From: Alphaproteobacteria bacterium
GTDB taxonomy: Bacteria; Pseudomonadota; Alphaproteobacteria; Reyranellales; Reyranellaceae
Direction of reading: 5' to 3'
Assembly (NCBI GenBank): GCA_947474005.1
Contig: CANJHI010000002.1
Location: forward strand, 1 to 64,000
Length of the DNA stretch: 64,000 bases
Made by a program: the position numbers and the translations under genes. A model generated the notes under the pieces. That model was not told where the DNA came from and did not search any database. It worked only from the letters and a program-made list of their open reading frames with translations. Position 1 is the stretch's first letter; each line of letters starts with the position of its first letter. Shown here one piece after another: positions 23,622-30,549 of the stretch.

Positions 23622-24608
23622 TCAGTTGGCCGGTTTGTAGCCGATTTCGTCGATGATCGTCTTCCAGCGCGCGAAGTCGGTTGCCATGCGTTGGGAGAAC
23701 TGCGCCGGGGTCGAGGTCTCGACGTCGAGGCCGAGCTCGGTGAGCTTCCGGTCGACCTCGGGCAGTTTCAGCACGGCGCGCAACTCGTTACCCCAGGCGT
23801 CGATCAGCGCCGGCGGCGTCTTGGCCGGCGCGAAGAACACATACCAGCCCAGGATGTTGAGCTTGGGGTAGCCGAGCTGGGTGGCGGTCGGGATCTCCGG
23901 CGCCGAGGTCGTGGGCTTCAGGCCCGAGGTGAAGATCACCTTCACCTTGCCGGCGCGGTGATGTTCCAGGAAATCGGTGATGCCGCCGCAGCCCGCCGCG
24001 ATGTGGCCGCCCTGCAGGTCGGCCACCAGCGGTGCCGCGCCACGATAGGGCACCGGCTCGAGCGGGATACCGAACTCGCGGCCGGCCATGACACCGAAGA
24101 AGTGCGTGAAGGAGCCCAGCGCCGTCGTACCGAAGCTATGCCGAGTCGGGTTCTGCTTCAGCCAGGCGATGTATTCCGGCAACGTGTTGACGCTGATGGT
24201 GGGGGAGACACAGAAGGCGGTCTGCACCGTGCCGGCGAGCGTGATCGGCGCGATGTCGGTCATCGGATCGAACGGCACCGACGCCATGGTGAGCTTCTGC
24301 ACGATGGTGGCCGACGGCACGTAGGCGATGGCGGTGCCGTCGGGCGCCGAATTCTTCAGCGCCTCGACGGCGATGGTGCCCGAGGCGCCGCTCTTGTTGT
24401 CGATGATGATGTTGCGGCCGGTGCGCTGCTTCAGCGGCTCGGCCAGGAAGCGCGCCATCACGTCGGTGCCGCCGCCGGCCGGGAAGCCGACCAGGATTTT
24501 GAGCGGCTTGTCGGGCAGCGCTGAATCGGCGCGGCCCAGCGACGGCAGGGCGAGAACCGCGCCCGCGAGGGCGAAGGATGTGCGGCGGGTGATGGTTTTT
24601 GTTGTCAT
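23622..24608 (-). CDS. Bug/TctC family substrate-binding protein
   Basis: 328-aa secreted receptor with leader MTTKTITRRTSFALAGAVLA. The family core is SALPDKPLKILVGFPAGGGTD, the DNKSGASGT loop, PDGTAIAYVPSATIVQKL and VPYRGAAPLVADLQGG. GGAGG precedes the ATG. It is transcribed ahead of the Cys-type alpha/beta hydrolase gene. No TctAB permease is present. It is most similar within the window to the receptor at 29117-30100, with which it shares IAYVPSATIV/IAFIPSATMV and the F-G-T-T segment. Confidence 0.92.
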   Translation of the reverse strand: MTTKTITRRTSFALAGAVLALPSLGRADSALPDKPLKILVGFPAGGGTDVMARFLAEPLKQRTGRNIIIDNKSGASGTIAVEALKNSAPDGTAIAYVPSATIVQKLTMASVPFDPMTDIAPITLAGTVQTAFCVSPTISVNTLPEYIAWLKQNPTRHSFGTTALGSFTHFFGVMAGREFGIPLEPVPYRGAAPLVADLQGGHIAAGCGGITDFLEHHRAGKVKVIFTSGLKPTTSAPEIPTATQLGYPKLNILGWYVFFAPAKTPPALIDAWGNELRAVLKLPEVDRKLTELGLDVETSTPAQFSQRMATDFARWKTIIDEIGYKPAN

Positions 24609-28332: not shown

Positions 28333-29082
28333 TCAGCCGTCCCAGACGTTTTGTGGCATCGGCAGCCGCGCGAAGTCGGCCTCGACCAGGGGGCGGCTGT
28401 GCGTCTGGCCCTCGCGCTCGAGCAGCATCATGTATTGCCGGACATGCTGGCCGGAGTGCCAGGTCGTGCGCTCGAGCAATTCGTGCAGGCTTTGCGGGCC
28501 GTAGTAGGTGTCGAGCGAGCGCGCGCCCGAGGTGTCGCCTGCTGCCCACCAGTCGCGGAAGCGCTGGCGCACCTTGGTGCCATAGGCCACGAGAGTGGCG
28601 GTATCGGCGTCGGACGCCGGCTCCTCGCGGAACATCGCCTGGACCAGCGTGACGCCCTGGTTGGCGTCGAGGAAGGCGTCGACCACGCGGAAGAGATGGA
28701 AGCCCAGCGTGCGGTAGCTGCGCGGCCGGCCCGGCACATGGGTGTCGAGGCGGTCGTAGGGCATCAGCGGCAGGAGCTCGAGGGCGGCGGTCATGAACTT
28801 GTCGAGCCGGACCTGCAGTTCGGCCGGCGACAGTTCGGGGCCGGACTTCTCGTGGAGGCCGAGGAACTCGACGATCTGCTTGGTGCTCTGGCCAAAGGTG
28901 AATTTGTCGCCGCGCGACAGCACCGGCACCGAGCGGGCCCCGAGCTTCTGCAGCTCGGCCAGGCCGGCCGGATCTTCAAGAACATTGACGGAAACGAAGT
29001 CGATCCCACGGACCGATAGAAACTCTTTGAGTCTCAGGCAGCTGGTTCAACCCGGCTGCCAGAACACCTTGAACGGCGGCAT
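28333..29082 (-). CDS. Glutaredoxin-DinB-like protein with in-frame UGA at the redox cysteine (candidate selenoprotein)
   Basis: Read through one TGA, this is a 249-residue protein. An N-terminal glutaredoxin domain (MPPFKVFWQPG, then UGA at codon 12, then T-S-C15, LKEFL, FVSVNVLEDPAGLAEL, and the cis-Pro loop ARSVPVLSRGDKF at about 47-60) is joined to a C-terminal DinB-like helical domain (LMPYDRLDTHVPGRPRS, TWHSGQHVRQYMML). Family members normally read G-C-T-S-C, so the stop (29047-29049) replaces exactly the nucleophilic Cys, giving U-x-x-C. ATG 29082 has AGGGAG 7 nt upstream, and both sides of the TGA remain well-conserved coding sequence. If UGA is read as selenocysteine, it is a glutaredoxin selenoprotein; otherwise it is a nonsense-interrupted gene whose DinB half might restart at GTG 28929. 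Confidence 0.7.
29019..29035 (-). promoter_or_regulatory. SECIS-like mRNA hairpin after the in-frame UGA
   Basis: On the minus strand, GAGACTC-AAA-GAGTTTC forms a 7-bp stem (one G-U pair) with a triloop. The stem begins 12 nt after the UGA and the loop lies 18-21 nt after it, inside the range reported for bacterial SECIS elements. The lower CC/GG pairing (29038-29037 with 29014-29013) could extend it, leaving bulged uridines. The codons here (AGA, AAA, TTT, CTA) look atypical for the surrounding GC-rich genes. The loop lacks the guanine usual in canonical SECIS loops. Confidence 0.45.
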
Positions 29083-29116
29083 GCGATACTCCCTGTCGCG
29101 GGCTTCTTCGCGGACG

Positions 29117-30100
29117 TCAATTGATCGGGTTGACGCCGAGCGTGTCAAGAGTCGTCTTCCAGTCCTTGAGGTCCGTGGCGAGCCGTTCCGCCAGTTCGGC
29201 GGGCGTCGAGGTCTGCACCGAGAACCCCAGTTGCCGCAGCTGTTCCGAGACGTCCCTGGATTGGAGGACTTTCCTGAGCTCTACGGCCCAGGTTTCGACC
29301 AGCTGAGCCGACATGCCGGGCGGCGCGAAAAACCCATACCAGTTGGTCTGCTGCAGCTTGGGGACCCCCACTTCGGCCACGGTCGGCACCTGAGGGGCGA
29401 TCGCGAGACGTTTGGCGGCGGAGATCATCAGCACCTTGAGCCGGCCGCCGCGCTCGGGCACGAGAAAGGATGTGATGCCGCCGGTGCCGGCGGGGATGCG
29501 CCCCTTCTCGAGATCGCCGATCAGCGGCCGCGCGCCGCCATAGGCCACGGCTTCGAGCGGCACGCCGATCTCACGCCCCAACAGGGTGCCGAAATATTGC
29601 GTGAAGGAATCCGGCGTCGTGGTGCCGAAGCGGGCGCGCGTCGCATCGCCCTCCTTCAGCCAGGCGACATACTCGGCAAAGGTGGTGATGCCGATCTTGG
29701 GCGAGACGGCGAAGGCCGTCGGATAGGTGCCGGCAAGCGTCAGCGGCAGCAGGTCGGTCAGGGGATCGAAGGGGAAGCTTGCCTTGACGAGTTTCCCGAC
29801 CATGGTCGCGCTCGGTATGAAAGCGATGACGGAGCCGTCCGGTGTCGACTTCTTGAGGATCTCGCCAGCCGCCACACCAGAAGGGCCGGGCTTGTAGTCG
29901 ACGGCGACGGTCCGTGTGATCAGGCTCTGCAGGGCGCCGGCGACGATATGCACCATCGAGTCCGAGCCGCCGCTCGAGGGGTAGCCGACCAGGATGCGGA
30001 TCGGCTTGTGCGGCAGGCCCGCCTGGGCACGCGCAGTCGCCGGCGCTGCGAGCGCCGCGCTCGTTGCGAGCAGCAGCCGGCGGGTGAGTGCGTTTTTCAT
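29117..30100 (-). CDS. Bug/TctC family substrate-binding protein
   Basis: 327-aa secreted receptor with leader LTRRLLLATSAALAAPATARA. The core is LPHKPIRILVGYPSSGGSD, the KPGPSGVAAGE loop, PDGSVIAFIPSATMVGKL and VAYGGARPLIGDLEKG, and the protein ends DTLGVNPIN. It is an orphan receptor without TctAB. ATG 30100 is preferred over 30169 because it starts directly before the leader. It lies 35 nt upstream of the glutaredoxin-DinB gene on the same strand, so the two may share a transcript. Confidence 0.92.
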   Translation of the reverse strand: MKNALTRRLLLATSAALAAPATARAQAGLPHKPIRILVGYPSSGGSDSMVHIVAGALQSLITRTVAVDYKPGPSGVAAGEILKKSTPDGSVIAFIPSATMVGKLVKASFPFDPLTDLLPLTLAGTYPTAFAVSPKIGITTFAEYVAWLKEGDATRARFGTTTPDSFTQYFGTLLGREIGVPLEAVAYGGARPLIGDLEKGRIPAGTGGITSFLVPERGGRLKVLMISAAKRLAIAPQVPTVAEVGVPKLQQTNWYGFFAPPGMSAQLVETWAVELRKVLQSRDVSEQLRQLGFSVQTSTPAELAERLATDLKDWKTTLDTLGVNPIN

Positions 30101-30165
30101 TGTCCGTTCACGTACAAGATAACGCCCGGGATGACCAAAGGTCCCTTGGCTCTCAAGTTGGGCCT

Positions 30166-30549
30166 TCACGCCGGCTTGTGGCAGACGATGCAGACCTTGT
30201 TGCCGTCGGGATCGCGCAGATAGGCGCCGTAGTAGTTCGGGTGATAGTGGGCGCGAATGCCGGGCGCGCCCTCGTCCTTGCCGCCCGCCGCGATGCCGGC
30301 CTTGTAGGCTGCCTCGACGGCGGGGCGGTTCGCGGCCTCCAGGCCAACCGTGATGCCGTTGCCGGCCGTGGCCGTGTTCTTGTTGAGCGGTCGGACGATC
30401 CAGATCTGCGGCCGGCCCCCGGCCGGGCCGTAACCAAAGGCCTCGGGATAGTCGGCATGGCGGACCAGGCCGAGCGGCGTGAGCAGCTTGTCGTAAAAGC
30501 CCTTGGCCTTGGCAACGTCGTTGCTGCCGATGGTGACGTGGCTGAACAT
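30166..30549 (-). CDS. VOC family (glyoxalase-like) protein
   Basis: 127-aa two-module beta-alpha-beta-beta-beta metalloprotein. The N-terminal strand is MFSHVTIGSNDVAKAKGFYD, followed by GGRPQIWIVRPLN and a C-terminal HYHPNYYGAYLRDPDGNKV, the usual metal-site region. It may be a lyase, isomerase or dioxygenase; the substrate is not predictable. ATG 30549 has GGGAGAG upstream. It is the third gene of a minus-strand run (exporter, LLM oxidoreductase, VOC). Confidence 0.88.
   Translation of the reverse strand: MFSHVTIGSNDVAKAKGFYDKLLTPLGLVRHADYPEAFGYGPAGGRPQIWIVRPLNKNTATAGNGITVGLEAANRPAVEAAYKAGIAAGGKDEGAPGIRAHYHPNYYGAYLRDPDGNKVCIVCHKPA

Follow-up and report, generated by a model that had tools for sequence, protein, structure and literature searches.

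The window, a stretch of 64,000 nucleotides from a Reyranella-like genome (5.68 Mb in 316 contigs, 94% complete), shows on its minus strand a gene encoding a glutaredoxin domain followed by a DinB/YfiT-type domain, with a UGA codon in frame near its 5' end (Table 1). This codon, found in the N-terminal context MPPFKVFWQPG-U-TSC, is the sole in-frame stop ahead of the terminator. The start codon, the 249-residue frame and the single TGA had been given in a preliminary description of this DNA and were confirmed from the sequence and with Pfam. The AGGGAG ahead of the ATG was found as described there, and the TGA lies, as claimed, exactly at the first redox residue of the motif GUTSC, where some of the farther homologues have a Cys codon. 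Standard gene calling would cut the gene off at the UGA or lose the redox domain.

Two genes resembling TctC-type receptors of tripartite tricarboxylate transporters are located on the minus strand at 23622-24608 and 29117-30169, Pfam having been applied to the latter. This latter gene ends 34 nt ahead of the ATG of the glutaredoxin-DinB gene, and in some of the relatives it likewise lies immediately upstream. Genes encoding a TctC receptor, a DUF883-like protein, a holin-like protein, an AI-2E transporter and a glyoxalase recur as neighbours in Reyranella only, the glyoxalase-family gene being a frequent one, and no neighbour gene was found to recur outside Reyranella. The gene neighbourhood thus gives little clue to function.

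Table 1. Positions of the gene, its codons, domains and RNA hairpins in the window
Feature	Position	Strand	Remarks
Sec-glutaredoxin/DinB gene	28333..29082	minus	249 residues if the UGA is counted as Sec; stop codon TGA 28335-28333
Shine-Dalgarno-like AGGGAG	29089..29094	minus	6-nt spacer to ATG; read directly
Start codon ATG	29082-29080	minus	read directly
Codon 12, UGA in frame, inferred as Sec (U) in GUTSC	29047..29049	minus	TGA in all covering homologues of 73-94% identity; TGC/TGT in 11 farther ones
Cys15, resolving cysteine of UxxC	29038..29040	minus	invariant across Sec and Cys forms
UGA-proximal hairpin	29019..29035	minus	GAGACUC-AAA-GAGUUUC; UGA+15 to +31; kept mainly in Reyranella and near kin
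Candidate SECIS apical hairpin (distal)	28999..29017	minus	UGA+33 to +51; UCGGUCC-GUG-GGAUCGA at +34 to +50
Glutaredoxin domain, about residues 4-76	28855..29073	minus	PF00462; 7c10 profile; Foldseek
DinB/YfiT-type four-helix domain, about residues 84-223	28414..28833	minus	Foldseek; invariant His129, His209 and His213

The N-terminal part matches Pfam Glutaredoxin PF00462 with 40.4 bits (cut-off 22.9, residues 6-60) and contains the UxxC motif as U12-T-S-C15, the combination that defines a Sec glutaredoxin. It also matches the profile of cGrx1 (PDB 7c10) with an E-value of 5.4e-9. The C-terminal part scores 22.6 bits with DinB_2 PF12867 (residues 99-216), just below the cut-off of 24.8; of the homologues compared, two score 22.6 and 22.4 bits and a third shows no match. 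An AlphaFold2 model built with 26 homologues (pLDDT 85.5, pTM 0.73) shows the glutaredoxin domain and then a helical domain. With Foldseek, the first is similar to BC3987 and cGrx1 (TM(target) 0.87 for 7c10) and the second is most similar to 6iz2 DR0053 (E 4.3e-5, TM(target) 0.79), and also to YfiT 1rxq, mycothiol S-transferase 8f5v and maleylpyruvate isomerase 2nsf. The predicted structure supports the DinB fold independently of Pfam. His129, His209 and His213, the last two forming HxxxH, are invariant in the 34 Sec and Cys forms compared (34/34), which we take to be the pattern expected for a DinB-fold metal site. A four-helix bundle with a metal site of three histidines is one criterion of the DinB superfamily; the predicted bundle (Foldseek to 6iz2) and the three histidines, a putative metal site, agree with it.

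Conservation of the UGA codon and selenocysteine genes

Homologues of Reyranella and its close kin were gathered by two routes. In Reyranella and its nearest kin, all homologues covering the site show TGA at codon 12, and the same codon is TGA throughout the covering homologues in more than 30 species genomes of the Reyranella group and also in other families. In other alphaproteobacterial families (37-52% identity) the codon is either TGA or one for Cys, and [TS]SC follows in every case: TGA forms, with 44-52% identity, occur alongside 11 Cys forms (L105, L106, L110 and L114-L121), which are homologous over the full length and have 37-47% identity. A conserved UGA aligned with Cys in homologues is itself a criterion for a bacterial selenoprotein. 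Homologues are present in 32 of the 385 sampled genomes of the class, and in a phylum-wide sample of 398 genomes matches were found only in the window's genome and in one other of the genus.

A single early in-frame stop, taken in isolation, looks the same in a decaying gene that carries a nonsense mutation or a sequencing error. This explanation is refuted by the TGA conserved at the same codon across the Reyranella group and other families, and its probability is close to nil. It also disagrees with the frozen synonymous sites after the UGA (see below) and with the frame downstream, which is under purifying selection as judged from dN/dS in pairwise comparisons of the window gene with relatives (0.09-0.26 in the remainder of the glutaredoxin domain after the UGA and 0.15-0.33 in the C-terminal part). 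The preliminary description had considered a chance nonsense mutation unlikely and had named as checks the codon of relatives, further stops in them and the selA, selB, selC and selD genes. Its view is borne out, since TGA is kept in 73-94% identical homologues from many independent assemblies; near relatives have TGA and more distant ones also Cys codons, no scattered further stops were seen in relatives, and the four sel genes are all in the genome.

SelA, SelB, SelD and tRNA-Sec, the set that serves as a criterion for a bacterial selenoprotein, are thus complete in the host genome, with 571.6 bits for selA, 455.1 bits for selB, 303.3 bits for selD, and 71.4 bits with Rfam and anticodon UCA with ARAGORN for tRNA-Sec. 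One contig (L131, G000:C176:1-11000) contains, in this order, a gene encoding formate dehydrogenase alpha, further ORFs, selA, one ORF, selB and selC. The formate dehydrogenase alpha gene shows an in-frame UGA at the metal-binding position (QARI-U-HGPT), and the ORFs between it and selA look like genes for FdhE and the remaining Fdh subunits. Another contig (L123, G000:C181:10508-11401) carries a further N-terminal piece of a Sec formate dehydrogenase, in which the UGA stands in the same context; this piece may be a second copy, or may supply the 5' end that the C176 gene lacks, with a contig break between the two. Formate dehydrogenase is the sole other Sec user seen in the lineage. In the genus, selB is above the cut-off in 58 of the 61 sampled genomes; a match above the tRNA-Sec cut-off is likewise found in 58 of 61, a few of which may be tRNA-Ser, which scores on that model too.

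Outside the genus, selB was found in 14 of 15 genomes with a TGA form versus three of 13 with only Cys (stop-free) forms (Fisher p = 2.7e-4, computed on genomes that are not independent draws). No selB was seen in one TGA-form genome outside Reyranella (G048, 77% complete), and neither full-length selB nor tRNA-Sec in one within Reyranella (G019, 89% complete). One genome, G365, carries both a TGA copy (L099) and a stop-free copy (C25:5253-6002) of the glutaredoxin-DinB gene. Three genomes of the Reyranella group (G006, G008 and G024) contain selB but gave no homologue at E 1e-20; either the gene was lost there or the search missed it. In a tree that includes the SECIS columns, a branch with support 79 separates off the Sec forms; without these columns two changes are required, and a single origin of the Sec form is therefore not established.

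Hairpins downstream of the UGA codon

Among 52 distinct sequences from Reyranella and its near kin, same-residue codon identity past the UGA is 0.96-1.0 at codons +4 to +17, except for one Lys codon (0.71), while from codon +18 onward it is mostly about 0.3-0.9. This frozen stretch of 14 codons, which includes AGA and CTA, folds into two hairpins. Over 18 distinct sequences, which come from several families, 92% of the cells of the distal hairpin (+33/51 to +40/44) are paired; three of its pairs show changes on both sides, and its motif CCGUG is invariant. An average of 7.05 of its eight pairs are formed in 61 Sec forms versus 3.5 in the 11 Cys forms, in which the Ser-Val/Ile/Ala-Arg stretch encoded by the hairpin is swapped for unrelated residues. 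Bacterial SECIS elements are described at 16-37 nt from the UGA (PMC10778597) and commonly show a small apical loop with a guanosine (PMC1088965). The distal hairpin has such a small G-containing loop on a covarying stem, and its GUG loop starts 37 nt past the UGA, just at the upper limit of that range (PMC10778597).

The proximal hairpin is strongly kept in Reyranella and is 70% paired across families, with no compensatory change, so it may be an accessory of the Reyranella lineage. It is unlikely that this hairpin, and not the distal CCGUG one, is what SelB binds in the selenoprotein: its loop distance of 18 nt is close to the 19 nt at which the formate dehydrogenase element of the host genome shows a GU-containing loop, and its synonymous sites are frozen in Reyranella, but its pairing and covariation are below those of the distal hairpin and its loop has no G, unlike the common bacterial feature (PMC1088965). 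With the distal hairpin as the SECIS, two widely different spacings appear to occur in the host genome, with loops at 19 and 37 nt. A covariance model search of the host genome found no second strong copy of the glutaredoxin SECIS. The two weak matches, with E 0.08 and 0.7, extend over no more than the hairpin part; the CCGTG sites there show no UGA-SECIS arrangement, and both matches were attributed to chance.

UGA readthrough exists in bacteria, and an internal GTG start in the gene yields a DinB ORF of 198 aa. The UGA could accordingly be a true stop, giving a short peptide and an internally started DinB protein without redox function, or a site of regulatory readthrough where a near-cognate tRNA, for Trp or Cys, places one of the standard amino acids. 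Either case is very improbable: the glutaredoxin residues between the UGA and any internal start are conserved, the replacement codons at the UGA site are Cys only, the hairpin goes together with the TGA form and with selB, and the genome has a dedicated Sec system. UGA conservation, Sec machinery, SECIS, selB association and purifying selection together point to a genuine selenoprotein, and on this sequence evidence codon 12 is almost certainly decoded as Sec. The same interpretation in the preliminary description is supported by the Sec genes, the conserved TGA and the Cys-codon relatives, to which the SECIS-like hairpin is added.

Possible function and comparison with known families

In the proposed mechanism, SelB and Sec-tRNA-Sec would decode UGA codon 12 as Sec, with insertion directed by the SECIS hairpin that follows the codon closely within the gene, and the product would be a UxxC glutaredoxin joined to a three-histidine DinB/YfiT-type domain. 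The selenolate of U12 would attack its substrate, which may be a disulfide, a peroxide-like compound or an adduct of glutathione; the intermediate would be resolved by Cys15 or glutathione, and the DinB domain, as a putative metal binder, would position or activate the thiol or the substrate. Judging from these domains, the whole protein is probably a thiol-dependent reductase or transferase. Another division of labour, possible but rather doubtful, assigns the main activity to the DinB part, which would act much as maleylpyruvate isomerase does, as a glutathione-dependent isomerase or transferase, and leaves to the Sec-glutaredoxin only the recycling of the thiol. DinB-fold relatives in the PDB are, among others, a mycothiol-dependent maleylpyruvate isomerase and a mycothiol S-transferase solved with mycothiol and Zn, and a glyoxalase-family gene often adjoins the window gene in Reyranella; however, gene neighbours are not common to relatives outside Reyranella. 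A fuller reading, which we hold tentatively and at somewhat less than even chances, is that of an undescribed family in which glutaredoxin and metal-binding DinB domains are laid out like a glutathione transferase, with Sec as nucleophile and with a metal site, and in which the SECIS lies at an extreme distance from the UGA, the extra Reyranella hairpin perhaps bringing it within reach of SelB.

If the selenoprotein reading is correct, the lineage, otherwise seen with Sec formate dehydrogenase only, gains a redox enzyme dependent on Sec, and selenium is linked to the DinB thiol-transferase fold. The homologues would form a Sec/Cys exchange series in which the SECIS comes and goes with Sec, and the spacing would be a natural test of the maximal SECIS-UGA distance.

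Among known proteins, cGrx1 (PDB 7c10, 'Dithiol cGrx1'), presumably a clostridial enzyme with Sec in its native form, shows 32-33% identity over the glutaredoxin domain. Sec-containing glutaredoxins (PF00462, UxxC), listed as experimentally verified (PMC13188914 Table 1), share the fold, the UxxC active site, the UGA-coded Sec and the in-ORF SECIS; the alphaproteobacterial protein differs from them by its C-terminal DinB domain. The UXX-star families (NF041212, NF041211, NF047338 and NF041114) and the HUGP/GUXX-star fusion (NF045501) have in common with it a glutaredoxin-like fold and Sec at the first redox position, and one of them is a fusion; the protein described here differs in the second Cys of its UxxC motif and in DinB as the fusion partner. 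No NCBIfam model is above its cut-off, the best UXX-star score being 33.6 versus 66 bits. An inventory of 2026, which covers 119 families and subfamilies of prokaryotic selenoproteins, includes glutaredoxin UxxC, AhpF-N-like Grx, UXX-star and several fusions, and the DinB fusion is absent from it (PMC13188914). The earlier Sargasso Sea set contains ten Sec glutaredoxin sequences (PMC1088965). The selenoprotein literature searched makes no mention of a DinB fusion, and none was found linking Reyranella and selenoproteins in a relevant way. Sec glutaredoxins are therefore known, but the DinB-fused architecture, its spread in alphaproteobacteria and the distal SECIS appear undescribed in the sources compared. 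DinB/YfiT proteins (6iz2, 1rxq, 8f5v and 2nsf) share the predicted fold of the C-terminal part of the window protein, which has the invariant triad H129/H209/H213, but they are not selenoproteins and match only the DinB part, at about 12-22% identity. The Cys-form glutaredoxin-DinB homologues of other alphaproteobacteria, found without the SECIS hairpin and mostly in genomes without selB, show the same motif with Cys and the same His triad.
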